From Paenibacillus sp. FSL W8-0426 (GTDB lineage: Bacteria > Bacillota > Bacilli > Paenibacillales > Paenibacillaceae): DNA of 64,000 nt. Shown piece by piece: positions 6,050-61,552 of the stretch (the stretch's first letter is position 1; each line of letters opens with the position of its first letter). The position numbers were made by a program, and so were the translations under genes. The notes under the pieces were generated by a model, which ran no database searches, had not been told where the DNA came from, and worked only from the letters and a program-made list of their open reading frames with translations. The DNA lies in NCBI RefSeq assembly GCF_037969725.1, contig NZ_CP150203.1:2186001-2250000 (forward strand), in the 5' to 3' direction.

Positions 6050-6150
6050 AAGCAGACCGACCCATTTTCCCGGGGAATGACCCGACGGAAAGAGGGAGAG
6101 CTAGATAACAGGCGATGGGAAGATGGTACTGCACTCGCAGTGACCTAGTG
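6050..6150 (+). repeat. dispersed structured repeat, copy C (partial)
   Basis: Shares the core GATAACA, then GGGAAGATGGTACTGC, with the longer copies at 30340-30471 and 59838-59968. The core ends in a hairpin in which ACTGC (6128-6132) pairs with GCAGT around an ACTC loop. The 5' half matches the other copies only weakly. It sits about 50 bp upstream of the start codon of the BadF-type kinase gene, in the leader position. Confidence 0.6.
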
Positions 6151-6200
6151 TGATTGATTAGTGCGGTTCATATAGACAATGTTGGAGGAGGAAATGAGCA

Positions 6201-30127: not shown

Positions 30128-30553
30128 GACAACTTGTTGTAAAATAAGCAAAGGGGAGCATGCAGATTGCCGTGTTCCAGAGTCTTCCGGACGGCTCGAT
30201 CCAATCTTAATCCCATTGCTTAAACGAATATTTTGGGATATAACAAGATGTACCGACTTGGTATCGGATTTTGAACATATTGTAACCGCTAACAGAAACG
30301 GAGGCAGCACCAATCTGGGGAATTGAAGTGATCTCCTGAAAGCGTTCTGCAAGAAAGCTGCATCAGAAGCAGAGACCGATCACGGATTGCCCTCCCTGAA
30401 AAAAGGGATTCGATAAAATTCGGAGATAACATCGACCGGGAAGATGGTACTGCTCTCGCTGTGGCCCGGTGGGGTTTATCTGTGGTTTTCTATAGCGTAG
30501 AAACGAGTATCGCAGAGACATAGAGGAAACACTAGAATAAGGGGGTTGCGATC
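30128..30553 (+). other. intergenic region between GH74 and yesN-type gene
   Basis: About 425 bp. The main content is structured-repeat copy A (30340-30471), listed separately. Otherwise I see a 16-codon open frame behind AAGGGGAG at 30160-30210 with no recognisable product. I found no clear promoter for the response regulator. Confidence 0.4.
30340..30471 (+). repeat. dispersed structured repeat, copy A
   Basis: 132 bp, about 75% identical by eye to 59838-59968. Shared blocks are AAGAAAGCTGC, GAAGCA, AAAGGGATTC, GATAACA and GGAAGATGGT. It can fold into CTGC/GCAG, then an outer CGGATT/AATTCG stem enclosing a CCCT/AGGG hairpin, then CCGGG/CCCGG closing an ACTGC/GCTGT hairpin. It lies 80 bp before the response-regulator gene in sense orientation. 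There is no open reading frame and no terminator T-run. Confidence 0.7.
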
Positions 30554-40696: not shown

Positions 40697-40889
40697 TCTA
40701 AACCATGAAGCTCCATTATTCATAACTTCGCATGGGCACAAGCGACTTTAGTCGTGTGAGGAACTGCGCTCGGCATAAGGGCTACCATCGGAAGCTCGAA
40801 AACCGAATGTCCATGCTTTCTTCATTTGTCATGGAAAATTAACCGTTGTTCACTGGATACCATGTTATACTTATTCCAATAAAAGACAG

Positions 40890-42011
40890 GTGAATCCGAT
40901 ACCGACCCTTACAGCAAAAATCCAAATCTATGTCCCATCTGAACATACAGACATACTCAGCAAGACCATCCATACCTACTGTGAAGCATGTAATTATCTT
41001 TCTGCAATTGTATTTCAAACCAAAGAATTAAGTCAGCGCACACTCAATGACTTGTATTATCGAGAGCTGCGAAGTCGTTTTCGTTTAAAAAGTCAGATGG
41101 CGCAATCGGTGATCAAAACCGTCATCGCCCGATATACATCTACTCGATCCAACGGGCACGATTGGAACTTGGTCAAATTCAAACGACCTGAATATGATCT
41201 GGTATGGAATCGAGATTATTCTTTGAACCATGATCGGTTTAGCGTAAACACACTAAACGGACGAGTGAAGCTCCGCTACAAAAAACAAGGAATGCAGCAC
41301 TTCTTTGACGGCACGTGGAAGTGGGGTACGGCCAAATTCGTGTATAAACACAGGAAATGGTTCCTACATATTCCCATGACCAAAGAGTTTGAATTAGGTT
41401 TTACGAATGTCAACCACATTGTAGGCATTGACCTCGGAATCAATTTTCTGGCCACAACCTACGACAGTCAAAGCCGGACCACGTTTTATCCTGGACGAAC
41501 GGTGAAACACAAACGTGGCCAGTATAAGGCCTTACGCAAACAACTCCAGATGAGGCAAACCCCATCGGCTCGAAAACGACTCAAACAAATCGGTTCAAGA
41601 GAAAACCGTTATGTTACGGATGTCAACCATCAAGTAACCAAGGCACTCGTTGAAACGTATCCGAAGGGGACCCTTTTTGTGATCGAAAATTTAAAGCATG
41701 TTCGTTCCGCTACTGAAAAAGTATGTGTTCGCCATCGGTATGTGTCGGTATCCTGGGCATTTCACCAATTCCGTGAAATGTTGGAGTATAAAGCTCAACT
41801 GAACGGGCAGCGCGTCATCGCAGTAAACCCTAAATATACTTCTCAAGCCTGCCCAAAATGTGGACATATTGAACGAGCCAATCGAAACAAAAAGACACAT
41901 ACCTTTGAATGCCGAACCTGCCACTATCGTTCGAACGATGACCGAATCGGTGCCATGAATCTGTACCGCAAAGGAATCGAGTACATCGGTACAGTTACAG
42001 CAGGAGTATAA
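40890..42011 (+). CDS. tnpB: TnpB RNA-guided nuclease of an IS200/IS605 element
   Basis: Protein of 373 residues. The N-terminal wedge region is LTAKIQIYVPSEHTDILSKT. The split RuvC active site appears complete: Asp in HIVGIDLGINFLATTYD (about 185), Glu in TLFVIENLKHV (about 268), and the last Asp in YRSNDDRIGAMNLYRKG (about 353). A treble-clef zinc finger (CPKCG about 318, CRTC about 337) lies between them. TnpB uses an RNA from the element's right end to cut DNA and helps the element persist. The GTG at 40890 is chosen by length; its binding site is weak, so the start is uncertain. No frameshift is seen, so it may be functional. Confidence 0.95.
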   Translation: MNPIPTLTAKIQIYVPSEHTDILSKTIHTYCEACNYLSAIVFQTKELSQRTLNDLYYRELRSRFRLKSQMAQSVIKTVIARYTSTRSNGHDWNLVKFKRPEYDLVWNRDYSLNHDRFSVNTLNGRVKLRYKKQGMQHFFDGTWKWGTAKFVYKHRKWFLHIPMTKEFELGFTNVNHIVGIDLGINFLATTYDSQSRTTFYPGRTVKHKRGQYKALRKQLQMRQTPSARKRLKQIGSRENRYVTDVNHQVTKALVETYPKGTLFVIENLKHVRSATEKVCVRHRYVSVSWAFHQFREMLEYKAQLNGQRVIAVNPKYTSQACPKCGHIERANRNKKTHTFECRTCHYRSNDDRIGAMNLYRKGIEYIGTVTAGV

Positions 42012-42169
42012 CTCTTGGCGAGGTCAACCGTCCTGATGTTCCAACACACTAAGGTAGGAGCACTGTGTGCGTTTGCACTACCGGTTAGGAATAAGTCTAA
42101 AAGGCTTGTGCAAAACGCAAGCACTGTCTACGAAGTAGGCAGAGACAAGCTCGTGACTTTAGTCATGAG
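42012..42169 (+). ncRNA. probable 3' part of the TnpB omega RNA
   Basis: By position: in IS200/IS605 elements the guide RNA scaffold covers the 3' end of tnpB and the right end, and the guide is the host DNA just beyond. Between the stop codon and the right hairpin lies 158 bp with small inverted repeats, for example TGCTTG...CAAGCA-like pairs around 42100-42125. The guide would start just after 42169 with host sequence beginning TTGTTGCC. Boundaries are approximate. Confidence 0.45.
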
Positions 42170-42222
42170 TTGTTGCCATGTTATTATCAAGAGGTGGAAA
42201 TATACTGGGAGGAGGATGGAAG

Positions 42223-43967: not shown

Positions 43968-44128
43968 GGGCAGAAGTATAGATGTATTCCATCGCATTGA
44001 AAAGGGAAGCCATTCGTCTTTTGTCATGACATATTTGCTGTTGGATTCTCTAATAGAAACTGACAAAAAAGGATTTCGACAGTATAATTGTTTTGAATAT
44101 CCTATACGGCACTGACCTGGAGGACGGC

Positions 44129-54677: not shown

Positions 54678-55469
54678 GTTCATTTTCATTAAGATGTGGT
54701 AAGGATGAAAGTTAGTCGAGAGTTAATAATGTAGCTGAACGAATTATTGGACACCACACACTGGAAGTGAAAAGTGAAGGATAAAAGTCGTCCACTGAGA
54801 AAACGTAACTACTTTAAGCTAATTAATTCGTACGCTGGTGTAATGAGGATTTTGTTCCTGGGGCAAAGTTAAAAGAAATTGAGGAAATCTGCTGAAATGG
54901 AAGACCGAAGCCGCTTGATTATTGATTATTAGGGGCATTATCTGAGCCAGCTTTAGTATTAACGAAGTGTAAAGACCAGTTGTTGGCTGATGTATCAGGC
55001 CATCTATAAGATAGTACATGATCACAGTGTCCAGAAGCTAAGGGGTTTGATTGATCGGGTGTTCGATATGATCGAGATGCTTCGCAGAGAAATTGGCTTC
55101 GAAAGATAATGAGAAAAATGGTGCCCACTTGGTGCCCATATAGACTTCGGAAAAAAGTAAAAACCCATCAGAAACCTTATCTGACGGGCTTTTATTCGGG
55201 GCCCTCTTTCGAGAGCCCCTTTCATGGGAGAGGAGAAACCGGACGAAGAGCTTATGGGGAAACGTAAGTCTTCTCCGCGGTTGTCTACGACACTTTTGAT
55301 GTCGATAATTATAGAATGGCCGGAACAGGGACACTTTATACATGCATTGCCAAAAAGAGTTTCACTTTTTTGCCTGTCAGGAAGACAGGCCTTTTATTTT
55401 TCAAACCGTTCCCGAGTGTGGTACGATAGCTTTATCATTAAACTTACATAGAGAAAAGGTGACTCGTCA
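54678..55469. other. insertion debris between the arsenic island and rsmD
   Basis: About 790 bp without an intact gene. A plus-strand frame at about 54981-55107 ends in LIDRVFDMIEMLRREIGFER then stop and looks like the tail of a lost gene. A direct repeat GGTGCCCA-CTT-GGTGCCCA follows at about 55121-55139. A bidirectional terminator lies at 55160-55195. This resembles the sequence beside integrated elements, but no integrase remains. Confidence 0.4.
55160..55195. terminator. bidirectional terminator
   Basis: CCCATCAGA pairs with TCTGACGGG (A-C mismatch) around a 7-nt loop. TTTTATT follows on the plus strand; TTTTT then TTTTTT lies on the minus strand. Confidence 0.75.
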
Positions 55470-58082: not shown

Positions 58083-59123
58083 ATGAATCGGATTCGGAAA
58101 TCGGGCGGTTTCAGAGTTTCGATCTTCGTGATCGTGGTTGCTCTGATCGTTTACGTAACGGTGTACATGCCGACGCCGTACATCATTTACATGCCCGGCA
58201 GCGCGGATGAGGTCAAACCCATGGTCACCGTGAAGGACGGGGACAGCGAAGAACGCGGGACATTTATGATGACGACGGTATCGGCAACGTATGCCAACGT
58301 GTTTTTGCTTGGCGCCTCGTTGTTTAACAAAAATGCCGAGATCGATAAGAAAGAGGATCGGTTGCGGGGCAAAACGGAGGCCGAATATTCGGCGGAGCAA
58401 GTATGGTTCATGAGCGATTCGCAGTCTTCTGCCATGGAAGCCGCGTACGAGAAGGCAGGAATCAAATATGCCATCGTACCGGAGCATATATTTGTGTTCG
58501 GTTTATCGGAAGATCCAAAACCGCAGGGGGACATCGCGCCGGGAGACATCATCTTGGGTGTAAACGGAACGGCGACCCCGGACAACACGGTGCTCTCGGC
58601 TCAACTCAAAAACCTGAAGGTCGGTGACACGGTTGAAATGCAGTTGGAACGGGGCGGCGAGACGATTAGCCGGGACGTGGAGCTGGTGGAAGTAAAGGAC
58701 AGCAAAACCGGGAAAACCCGGCCAGGACTCGGCGTGATGATCGGCACCGTGCAAAAGGTCAAACCGGAAGATTCCAGCAAACAAATCACGTTTACGGATA
58801 CCCGGGTGGGCGGTCCATCCGCTGGTTTGATGTTTACGCTGGAAATTTATAACCAGTTGACCCAAGGAGACCTCACCCATGGACACCGGATTGCCGGGAC
58901 GGGTACGATCACGAAGGATGGCGTTGTTGGCCCGATCGGCGGGGTCGTGCACAAAATCGTGGCCGCCGACCGGAAAAATGCGGAGGTTTTCTTTGTCCCG
59001 CAGGACAATTATAAGGATGCTGCGGCCAAAGCCGAGCAGATCGGCAGCAAAATGAAAATCGTTCCCGTAAGCACGGTAGACGATGCACTGGCTTATTTAA
59101 AGACGTTGACCGTAAAATCGTAA
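58083..59123 (+). CDS. ylbL: YlbL/SepM-type membrane serine protease (PDZ + Lon domain)
   Basis: Membrane-anchored protease of 346 residues. One N-terminal helix (SIFVIVVALIVYVTVYMPTP, 13-32), a PDZ domain at about 120-205 (FGLSEDPKPQGDIAPGDIIL), and a C-terminal Lon S16 domain. The catalytic Ser lies in VGGPSAGLMFTLEIYNQL (about 243) and the Lys in GGVVHKIVAADRKNAEVFFV (about 288). Relatives trim signal peptides or membrane proteins outside the cell. Orthologue of B. subtilis ylbL, in its usual place between ylbJ and ylbM. It is followed by a terminator. Confidence 0.94.
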   Translation: MNRIRKSGGFRVSIFVIVVALIVYVTVYMPTPYIIYMPGSADEVKPMVTVKDGDSEERGTFMMTTVSATYANVFLLGASLFNKNAEIDKKEDRLRGKTEAEYSAEQVWFMSDSQSSAMEAAYEKAGIKYAIVPEHIFVFGLSEDPKPQGDIAPGDIILGVNGTATPDNTVLSAQLKNLKVGDTVEMQLERGGETISRDVELVEVKDSKTGKTRPGLGVMIGTVQKVKPEDSSKQITFTDTRVGGPSAGLMFTLEIYNQLTQGDLTHGHRIAGTGTITKDGVVGPIGGVVHKIVAADRKNAEVFFVPQDNYKDAAAKAEQIGSKMKIVPVSTVDDALAYLKTLTVKS

Positions 59124-59546: not shown

Positions 59547-59730
59547 CTGACGAACCCTAGGCACGTTATCGGGAGCTGATCGTGGGTTGCAATCTGTAAC
59601 GAACTTCAGGCACGCTAAACGTGACGAAATGAGCTGGAATGCTGCTAAAATGCGGAAATAAGGTGCGTCAGGTTCGTAAGCCAAAGAATTACGCGAAATA
59701 TGACGAAATAAGGTGTGTTTGGTTCGTAAG
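59547..59730. repeat. four 24-bp repeats, two in each orientation, about 50 bp apart
   Basis: Consensus RATAASGTGYST..GGTTCGT.AG. Plus-strand copies at 59657-59680 (AATAAGGTGCGTCAGGTTCG..) and 59707-59730 (AATAAGGTGTGTTTGGTTCG..). Minus-strand copies at 59547-59570 and 59596-59620 (as GATAACGTGCCTAGGGTTCG and GTTTAGCGTGCCTGAAGTTC). The spacing within each same-orientation pair is 49-50 bp. The two pairs face each other as a larger inverted arrangement. No open frame lies here. Confidence 0.7.
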
Positions 59731-59837
59731 AGCTCGGGATGACTGATAACGAATAACGAATGACTATATAGATTGAACCGGAAATTTACACGATAACGAA
59801 GAGGGCAGAAAGAATCTGGAGAAGCGAAGCGGTCTAA

Positions 59838-59968
59838 AAGCTTCTTGAAAGAAAGCTGCTTCGGAAGCATAGGCTTATCACCAGATTTTCCCCTTAACTA
59901 AAGGGATTCAAAAAAATCTGGGGATAACAGCGATCGGAAGATGGTTCTGACCGCGTAGTGTCTCTGTG
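59838..59968 (+). repeat. dispersed structured repeat, copy B
   Basis: 131 bp, the counterpart of 30340-30471. Hairpins: TGCTT-CGG-AAGCA near 59859-59871, and an outer stem CCAGATTTT/AAAAATCTGG (59881-59889/59911-59920) enclosing CCCTT/AAGGG. The shared core GGGGATAACAGCGATCGGAA then AGATGGTTCTG follows. No gene follows on the same strand within 3 kb apart from the ylbN operon. It lies in the 1.1-kb ylbL-ylbM gap. Confidence 0.7.
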
Positions 59969-60025
59969 TAAAAATCTTTGGTTCAACCTATATAATAACC
60001 AATGACTAGTGTCCAAAACTGAAAA

Positions 60026-60087
60026 TGATCAAATGGCTGATGGGGTAGTAAGCAAGTGATCAAATGGCTAATAGACCACGAAGTAAG
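60026..60087 (+). repeat. 31-bp tandem duplication
   Basis: TGATCAAATGGCT at 60026 and again at 60057. Each 31-bp unit ends in GTAAGCAAG or AAGTAAG-like sequence. The second unit has diverged in its middle. Non-coding. Confidence 0.65.
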
Positions 60088-60216: not shown

Positions 60217-61449
60217 TTACAGCCTTACCGGAGGCTCGAAAAAATCGCTGAACATCATGCGCGAGCTTGTCTGTTCATATGCAAGGGCATATGCTGCCTG
60301 TGCTTGGATATCCATTTCCAGGTGAGGGTGCGTGAAGCCGGAAGGTTTCATGACCACAGGCAAGGAGGCCGTTTTTTTCATTTGTTTTAATAACGTTTGG
60401 CCAGTGGCATTGAAACCGAGCACGCGCAGATAACCCGGACCTTCGGATAACGACATGGGCGACAACTCTTCCTTGCTATGATTGAGAAGCACATGGGTTA
60501 GCATGCGCTGCAGCTTGGTGCGCGTATAACGTTTGGTTTTGAGCGCGGCCAGCAGCGCTTCGACGCTGGGCTCCGGCAGTTGGGCCAGGGCACGGCCCAA
60601 CCGGTGTTCGAGGCCTTCCGTGACCTCGGCGATGCGCGCCAGCTCGGAGGCACGGCGCGTGGCCGCGATGTGCAGCAGCGGCCGCGCCAGGCGCTCCCAA
60701 TGCACGGGAGCGCGCCCTTCCTGCCATTCGCGCCGCAGAATGGCAAGCGAAGCCGCCGGCACGTACGGCGCGGCGGCTTCGGGCCCGTCCGCCAGCAGCA
60801 GGCGGCGGACGGCCGTGGCACTGGCGATCGCCCCCGGCCCGGGCGTCGCCTCGTGGTAGGCGGCACCGGTACGCGCCGCCGTCAAAGGCGTGATCGCGCT
60901 GCCCAGCCGCTGCAGCGCGATCAGGTAGTGCAGCCCAAGCGAATTGTTGGGCTGCCCGAGCAGTGCGGCGGCGGCATCCGCCTCGACGCCGCCGGGCGCC
61001 AGCGCTGCCGCCGCGCCGGCGTACGCGGCGGGGTAGCTGGCGCCTTCCCGCAGGCGGCGCGCGATGTCCTCGCGCAGCCCTGCGGGCTCCACAGCCAGCA
61101 CGCGCGCGATGCGCTGCAGGCTGTCCAGGTCGCCGGACTCGCTGCCAAAGCAGAGCGAGTCCACCACCCCGGTGCGGTCCAGCAGGGACACCGCACCGAA
61201 GGCAAACCATTCCGCCGGCTGCACCGCATACGCCACCGGCAATTCAAACACCAGATCGGCGCCTGCGTGCAGCGCCATCTCGGTGCGCGCCCTTTTGCCC
61301 ACGATCGCGGGTTCCCCGCGTTGAAGGAAAGGGCCGCTCATGACGGCCACCACGGCGTCCGCTCCGCTCAGCCGCCGGGCCTCTTCAAGATGATAAACAT
61401 GCCCGTTATGCAGCGGGTTGTATTCCACAATGACGCCAACAACCTTCAT
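60217..61449 (-). CDS. tmcAL: tRNA(Met) cytidine acetate ligase TmcAL (YlbM)
   Basis: Forms N4-acetylcytidine at the wobble position of elongator tRNA-Met from acetate and ATP. The protein has 410 residues. The nucleotidyltransferase motif is VGVIVEYNPLHNGHVYHLEE (residues 3-22, HxGH), and then VVAVMSGPFLQRGEPAIVGK. QPNNSLGLHYLIALQRL is the second signature, and the C-terminal domain holds KTKRYTRTKLQRMLTHVLLN. The ATG at 61449 follows AAAGGAGC; the frame extends 24 codons upstream without support. The middle (about 130-330) is extremely rich in Ala, Gly and GC-ending codons, unlike the rest of the window. Its place after ylbL is as in B. subtilis. Confidence 0.95.
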   Translation of the reverse strand: MKVVGVIVEYNPLHNGHVYHLEEARRLSGADAVVAVMSGPFLQRGEPAIVGKRARTEMALHAGADLVFELPVAYAVQPAEWFAFGAVSLLDRTGVVDSLCFGSESGDLDSLQRIARVLAVEPAGLREDIARRLREGASYPAAYAGAAAALAPGGVEADAAAALLGQPNNSLGLHYLIALQRLGSAITPLTAARTGAAYHEATPGPGAIASATAVRRLLLADGPEAAAPYVPAASLAILRREWQEGRAPVHWERLARPLLHIAATRRASELARIAEVTEGLEHRLGRALAQLPEPSVEALLAALKTKRYTRTKLQRMLTHVLLNHSKEELSPMSLSEGPGYLRVLGFNATGQTLLKQMKKTASLPVVMKPSGFTHPHLEMDIQAQAAYALAYEQTSSRMMFSDFFEPPVRL

Positions 61450-61552
61450 AGGTTCCCGTGCTCCTTTCTCTGTTTCGGTTGGCTGAACACATATCTTGTT
61501 CAATAATAGGGCAATGCCCATGCATGTTCAAATCGGAAGATGCGCAAATGGC

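Follow-up and report, generated by a model that had tools for sequence, protein, structure and literature searches.

The window analysed here, a 64,000-nt stretch (positions 2186001-2250000) of the one 6.91-Mb contig that forms the genome of Paenibacillus sp. FSL W8-0426 (G000, here the own genome), holds three copies, A, B and C, of an intergenic repeat with terminal inverted repeats and a folded core. The neighbour genes, whose identities we give for these three copies, encode a protein carrying BNR-like and carbohydrate-binding domains and a YesN-type response regulator at copy A, a methyltransferase and a BadF/ROK-type protein at copy C and, on either side of copy B, the convergently oriented PDZ/Lon_C protein (58083-59123, + strand) and HIGH_NTase1 protein (60217-61521, - strand). 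The core was located with R1, a covariance model built from 41 sequences, whose E-values, obtained with a short calibration, are rough; copy A (L001) is among the 41 training rows and copy B is not. The features in the window are:

59765..59994, + strand: copy B, full-length with type II ends, between convergent genes (ends exact, core by R1)
59765..59778, + strand: left terminal inverted repeat of copy B, TATATAGATTGAAC, 0 mismatches
59803..59952, + strand: folded core of copy B, P1-P2-P3-P4-P5 (R1, 139.5 bits, E 4.5e-35)
59981..59994, + strand: right terminal inverted repeat of copy B, GTTCAACCTATATA, 0 mismatches
~30260..30495, + strand: copy A, with decayed ends, upstream of the gene for the YesN-type response regulator (approximate bounds from alignment with other copies)
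30302..30455, + strand: folded core of copy A (R1, 97.6 bits, E 5.9e-24)
about 6104..6175, + strand: copy C, 3' half only, from GATAACAGGCGATGGGAAGATGGTACTGC to the right end (read by eye in the sequence)

Copy C gave no R1 match in the window search; its right end, GCGGTTCATATA, which reaches to 6174, is the terminal repeat with one mismatch. The ordered sequence blocks that a sequence-only reading of this DNA had picked out were found in the window where that reading placed them, and the 131 bp that it assigned to the element turned out to be only the inner part of a larger unit. When 30 copies were aligned in one orientation, conservation extended past the 131 bp as far as inverted repeats at the two ends, CTATATAAACCGC...GCGGTTTATATAG, lying ~230 bp apart, and the ~230-bp unit thus comprises these repeats and a core of ~150 nt. 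Terminal repeats in the own genome are of two types, TATATAAACCGCA or TATATARRTTGAAC, and shortened copies of 50 to 193 bp occur that keep both ends and lack inner parts. The intergenic stretch with copy B measures about 1.1 kb here, whereas three sister species have stretches of 301, 186 and 170 bp; the element would not fit into the latter two, and the 301-bp stretch was without it among the matches listed. Other short repeats accompany copy B in its intergenic stretch, at 59600-59760 (GACGAAATAAGGTG..GGTTCGTAAG) and 60018-60070 (GATCAAATGGCTGATGG..). Elsewhere in the window, positions 55154-55280 match the ylbH leader RNA (RF00516, 71.4 bits), ~1470 bp at about 40710-42180, holding a 373-aa ORF (40890-42011), are absent from a second genome of the same species (G142) and look like a strain-specific insertion, and near 44026 about 1.27 kb are extra in G142.

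The element is highly repeated. Copy A returned at least 40 BLAST matches from its own genome, all with E<=3e-17; a 31-nt core pattern, with 3 mismatches allowed, gave 57 + 43 matches versus 0 for the reversed control, and the end sequence, at <=2 mismatches, 93 + 94 versus 36 + 23. Where three copies had been proposed, the genome scan with a covariance model, suggested at that time as a check and run with R1, yielded at least 147 matches at E<=1, at least 140 of them at E<1e-3, counts that are lower bounds because 150 candidates were scored. G142 yielded at least 143 matches at E<=1e-3, likewise from 150 scored candidates. BLAST with the core across the family found matches in 237 of 394 genomes and 10 of 19 genera; across the order, with ten candidates per genome being scored, R1 had matches at E<=1e-3 in 257 of 296 genomes and 35 of 48 genera, and those outside the own family include many weak ones (E 1e-4 to 1e-6) alongside strong ones (to 1e-32). 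At class level (E<=1e-4), 27 of 299 genomes had matches, all 27 belonging to the own family, and among the 272 that had none, the 20 listed are all of other families. The exact core pattern occurs in at least 120 stretches of named genomes, and the 80 matches listed are all from Paenibacillus. Against Rfam 15, no family reached its gathering score for the element in the window search, and copies A and L007, searched at E<=10, returned nothing convincing, the best sub-threshold match having E 0.71. More than 100 intergenic sites of this genome that lack an Rfam entry are now annotated. At one locus, L158 (4569328-4569881 of the own genome), three matches adjoin or overlap, and the stretch of G142 that aligns with it (L220, C8:27491-28204) has four.

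Five helices make up the core fold: P1 closes it, P2 is a small hairpin, P3 and P4 are two further hairpins and P5 is a long one. The segment directly after P5, AACAGCGATCG, is near-constant and among the most constant parts. Compared with shuffled sequences, copy B folds better (z -3.45) and copy A does not (z -0.67). Among 31 own-genome copies little covariation was apparent, with two-sided change in 5 of 38 predicted pairs and a covariation term of 0.51; it became strong once more diverse copies were aligned. In an alignment of 41 sequences from 4 genera (A4), which omitted loci without P3-P4 as well as L078, L088 and others, 22 of 41 pairs show two-sided change, as against a mean of 11.9 in shuffled alignments (0/500 as high) and 7-11 in slid versions, so that the paired substitutions claimed by the sequence-only reading do exceed chance. 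The same alignment has 100 two-sided cells versus 30.0 after shuffling, and 90.7% of its cells are paired, a figure that is favoured by the structure having been drawn from one A4 sequence. With 127 own-genome matches, aligned by fitting to the model and hence leaning towards it, 28 pairs are two-sided versus 11.8, but in the middle of P1 no more than 40.5% of cells are paired. A wider fitted alignment (A6), comprising 66 rows from 12 genera after removal of 7 of 73 rows (matches that were partial, doubtful or on the opposite strand), shows several kinds of standard pair at nearly every pair of P1 and P5 (at column pair 4/247, for example, CG 42, GC 7, UA 7 and AU 7); P3 is nearly invariant, and the middle of P1 is paired in 66-86% of the 66 rows. 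Two compensated rows suggest a further helix, TCGC/GCGA, which would enclose P5 and is otherwise nearly invariant. The strand that folds may be RNA or single-stranded DNA. Since the inner part folds alike in related genera, the fold appears to matter for the spread of the element.

P3-P4 constitutes an optional double-hairpin module of 39 bp, whose state differs at 6 of the 56 loci common to the own genome and G142; the element thus has a BOX-like modularity, with an inner module that can be absent inside fixed ends. Other loci differ between these two genomes by partial deletions and by a hybrid of two element types. Isolated P3-P4 modules gave 27 matches outside called cores in the own genome, and the 15 listed belong to elements that are incomplete or have decayed. 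At L378 (genome G021) and L385 (genome G203), about three P3-P4-like hairpin modules stand in an array from which the remainder of the core is missing, and at L365, in a low-copy genome (G405), P3-P4 was seen by eye inside the P2 loop instead of behind P2, giving the impression that the module had moved alone. At L104 (about 817882-818122 of the own genome), a type I core lies within the arms of a different, GGACGGAATTG-type element, and at this place G142 has a short version only.

Comparison of the own genome with G142 revealed that the copies are mobile. From the 30 best copies of G142, 26 are common to the own genome, three occupy sites that are empty here and one (L205) was not placed; the three insertions absent here amount to 230, 233 and 225 bp net. 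At two of them, L192 and L195, the empty site is CTAG and the filled one CTATATAAA...TTTATATAG. Specifically, L195 is ...GACGAT CTAG ACGAAA... when empty and GACGAT CTATATAAAC...GTTTATATAG ACGAAA when filled, and L192 has CTATATAAAC...GTTTATATAG in place of CTAG, with further small differences beside the insertion. Both can be read as C-TA-[element]-TA-G, that is, as insertion at the TA of CTAG with duplication of TA. The empty site at the third, L197 (6230941 of the own genome), is AATTAAATG and has no CTAG, for which an excision scar, mutation or another target are possible explanations. Target duplication, named beforehand as a mark of a mobile repeat, was therefore found as TA at CTAG in two of the three filled/empty pairs, from one species, and not at L197; duplication of TA is a trait of IS630/Tc1-mariner elements. 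A preference for CTAG is also seen among 68 own-genome copies, whose TA ends are preceded by C in 40, followed by G in 42 and flanked by both in 21, whereas a count over 0.72 Mb of the own genome puts the share of CTAG among TA sites at 1.03%. No excess of target duplication was detected outside the TATATA ends of these 68 copies for k of 2-9 at nine offsets, a test to which a TA inside the ends is invisible. A bacterial IS630-family element is described as inserting almost only into TA and duplicating it (PMC2170065); the reference list of that paper includes Tenzen and Ohtsubo (1991), by whose title an IS630-associated transposon prefers the TA in CTAG.

Both ends, with at most 2 mismatches each, are kept in 68 of 137 mapped own-genome copies, and in 66 of these 68 the two ends are, by eye, of matching type. 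Other species have different ends around the same core. The 45-nt flanks of the core pair better with their own partner than with a swapped one in 95 of 121 own-genome copies (p 9e-11), and in copies from other genera and distant species they do so in 43 of 49 (p 1.3e-9), at a mean of -22.6 versus -15.6 kcal/mol for swapped flanks. That the flanks in other genera are complementary copy by copy, with differing sequences, counts against one transposase. Stems in the low-copy genome G405 vary between copies and yet pair, better than swapped stems in 10 of 13 copies (p 0.017), the outer arms alone doing so in 9 of 13, which is not significant (p 0.08); these 13 are the loci parsed out of 23, with 10 unparsed and a few parses doubtful.

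We then compared how the copies have diverged at the 69 loci common to the own genome and G142. Differences were found at 99 of 9120 core positions (1.09%), 77 of 5780 positions of the terminal arms (1.33%), 233 of 19014 of the intergenic flank (1.23%) and 230 of 28939 of the coding flank (0.79%). The core has thus changed at about the pace of the intergenic flank (p 0.32) and faster than the coding flank (p 0.011), the two flanks differing from each other at p 3e-6. In columns with >=95% conservation across the copies, 20 of 2273 positions differ (0.88%; p 0.18 versus the flank), and in variable columns 22 of 1311, a contrast (p 0.037) that is helped by how the classes were made. Among 53 pairs changed between the two genomes, pairing is gained or lost in 38, retained in 10 and absent from both genomes in 5. 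Thus, after insertion the copies in this species evolve nearly neutrally, although weak selection may remain, and a core that evolves about like its intergenic flank argues against a site-by-site role in the host. Taken together with covariation across genera, near-neutrality of single copies suggests that the fold is selected in lineages that keep transposing.

To place the copies relative to genes we used calls by a codon-score caller made for this analysis. The 137 mapped copies are those left from 147 R1 matches after the 7 weaker ones had been dropped and 3 of the 140 at E<1e-3 had remained unmapped; 136 of them lie outside called genes. Neighbours were counted for 133 (4 copies, inside a gene call or without both neighbours, were dropped), with 94 in tandem arrangement (78 sense, 16 antisense), 23 convergent and 16 divergent. 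With position 1 assumed to be the origin and the midpoint the terminus, 106 of 137 copies and 473 of 603 genes are on the leading strand, and in tandem pairs on the lagging strand so assumed the element runs in gene direction in 6 of 7. Leader positions had earlier been taken as a hint of regulation: copies A and C do lie upstream of co-directional genes, the term leader fails for copy B, which is between convergent genes, and regulation is not supported by the broad arrangement of the 133 copies.

A partner transposase was sought in several ways. No autonomous element with the same ends was present among the end pairs formed from the 100 listed of 187 end matches. These gave five long terminal-repeat pairs, three of which (L130, L144 and L148) are two neighbouring elements each, the others being L031 and L179. 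At L031 (1737061-1738508 of the own genome), a gene named by eye as a LacI-type regulator lies between partial element ends 1.45 kb apart. A search of 2.44 Mb for an ORF-bearing version, with 200-4000 bp between core halves, found none and left 32 lone 5' and 97 lone 3' core halves. The IS630 signature motif, P.YSP.LNPIE, was absent from 2.84 Mb of fetched sequence, covering about a tenth of the own genome.

We consider it probable (roughly 0.68) that the copies represent a non-autonomous, MITE-like mobile element of IS630/Tc1-mariner type, modular in the manner of BOX and having a folded core that is conserved. Movement would depend on an IS630-type transposase acting in trans, and insertion at the TA of CTAG, as shown at two sites, duplicates TA; the fold would be selected in lineages that keep transposing and not at each site afterwards, and, as RNA or single-stranded DNA, might for instance aid mobilisation or limit harm to host transcripts. 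The alternative posed at the outset, a structured RNA or a mobile repeat, is in this way answered on both sides, insertion polymorphisms, differing ends and near-neutral evolution bearing out mobility and the covariation a conserved fold, with only the regulatory hint left unsupported. A host regulatory RNA, whose copies would act in leaders or tails of neighbouring transcripts and be kept for that, could account for the strong covariation in both the 4-genus and the 12-genus alignments, the location of 136 of 137 copies outside genes, the sense orientation of 78 of 94 tandem copies and of 6 of 7 on the lagging strand, the copy-specific stems of G405 that still pair and the lesser change of conserved than of variable columns. 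We nevertheless judge it improbable, given that presence of the element varies within the species, that its arrangement relative to genes is broad, that the core diverges like the intergenic flank and faster than the coding one, that even conserved columns do not differ significantly from the flank and that 38 of 53 changed pairs gain or lose pairing. If ends alone mattered, as in a plain MITE whose core is carried along inertly and owes its structure to the inverted repeats, then TA duplication at CTAG, matched end types, the P3-P4 differences at 6 of 56 loci and the several internally deleted copies would all be expected. A passenger core should, however, decay first, and here the core stays while ends differ between species, its stems undergo compensatory change in both multi-genus alignments and model matches reach 35 genera, which makes that explanation unlikely too.

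A Y1 (HUH) transposase that spreads the element as a folded single strand, in the manner of REP/RAYT or IS200/IS605, would suit palindromic, intergenic copies with conserved hairpins, 106 of 137 of them on the assumed leading strand, and Y1_Tnp matches are present in G142, the genome with three extra insertions. Against it, Y1_Tnp (PF01797, E<=1e-5) had no match in four of the 10 genomes selected by their >=10 element matches, the own genome being one of the four, the leading-strand share equals that of genes, and TA duplication, not expected for Y1 (HUH) transposition, was observed, so that we regard this route as extremely unlikely. Copying through RNA, by reverse transcription in trans through an enzyme like that of group II introns, with the fold as the RNA substrate, might leave the excess of GU over AC pairs seen on this strand (63 versus 28 in the 41 sequences, 166 versus 70 in own-genome copies). 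Much of this excess comes from one pair (76 of 166), without which the counts are 90 versus 68, or 19 versus 15 pair by pair; the GU-over-AC comparison was accordingly dropped as a strand test for RNA, and a DDE transposase would better account for TA duplication at a palindrome, making RNA copying very unlikely. Returning to the mobile element with a folded core, a wider version of that reading can be offered tentatively, in which the unit under selection in a DNA transposon lineage spanning the order is a folded RNA or single strand; the core would serve in transposition or its control, and the terminal repeats would be exchangeable closing stems. Some elements of low-copy genomes might then be domesticated structured RNAs, as copies there have their own, still pairing, stems.

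Small non-autonomous structured repeats are a known kind of element. Like REP/REPIN sequences with their RAYT, the copies are many-copy intergenic palindromes, but no Y1 transposase match exists in the own genome and the unit is far longer than REPs, which measure 20-40 bp. BOX of Streptococcus pneumoniae, going by the portions of PMC3049150 that describe it, is similarly dispersed, with terminal inverted repeats, a predicted RNA fold and an inner module that can be absent (boxB there, P3-P4 here), and its strand bias, with 60.8% on the leading strand, mirrors the coding bias, as does that of the present copies (106 of 137 versus 473 of 603 genes). BOX differs, on the same description, in being over-represented between convergent genes, where we find 23 convergent and 16 divergent of 133, and the present core, compared with BOX by description only, is matched in 35 genera of one order. 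RUP of S. pneumoniae, in the same portions of that paper, is also small, non-autonomous and tied to an IS630-type element, its ends resembling those of IS630-Spn1; here, no partner IS was found in the sequence searched, and a multi-branched core of ~150 nt is conserved beyond the genus. The MRSC-65-2 mobile/repeat motif, as outlined in part of PMC11109978, often has dozens of copies per genome and strong covariation and is thought to be selfish, but consists of a single long stem with a UYCCGG repeat and occurs in diverse phyla, unlike the five-helix multi-branched fold described here, matched in 27 of 299 genomes of the class, all of the own family. Another repeated, structured element of Bacilli, bcr1, is of about 150 bp, and we set it apart by its description in part of PMC2267715, a title cited there calling it specific to the Bacillus cereus group. 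The combination of IS630-type insertion with a covarying core that is conserved across an order was not described in the top-ranked results of Paenibacillus-directed literature searches. MITEs are usually defined by their ends, and their inside drifts. In the element described here, by contrast, ends change between species, the core fold covaries across 12 genera and single copies drift almost freely, which points to selection during spread and offers a DNA element in which dependence of propagation on a folded strand can be put to the test.
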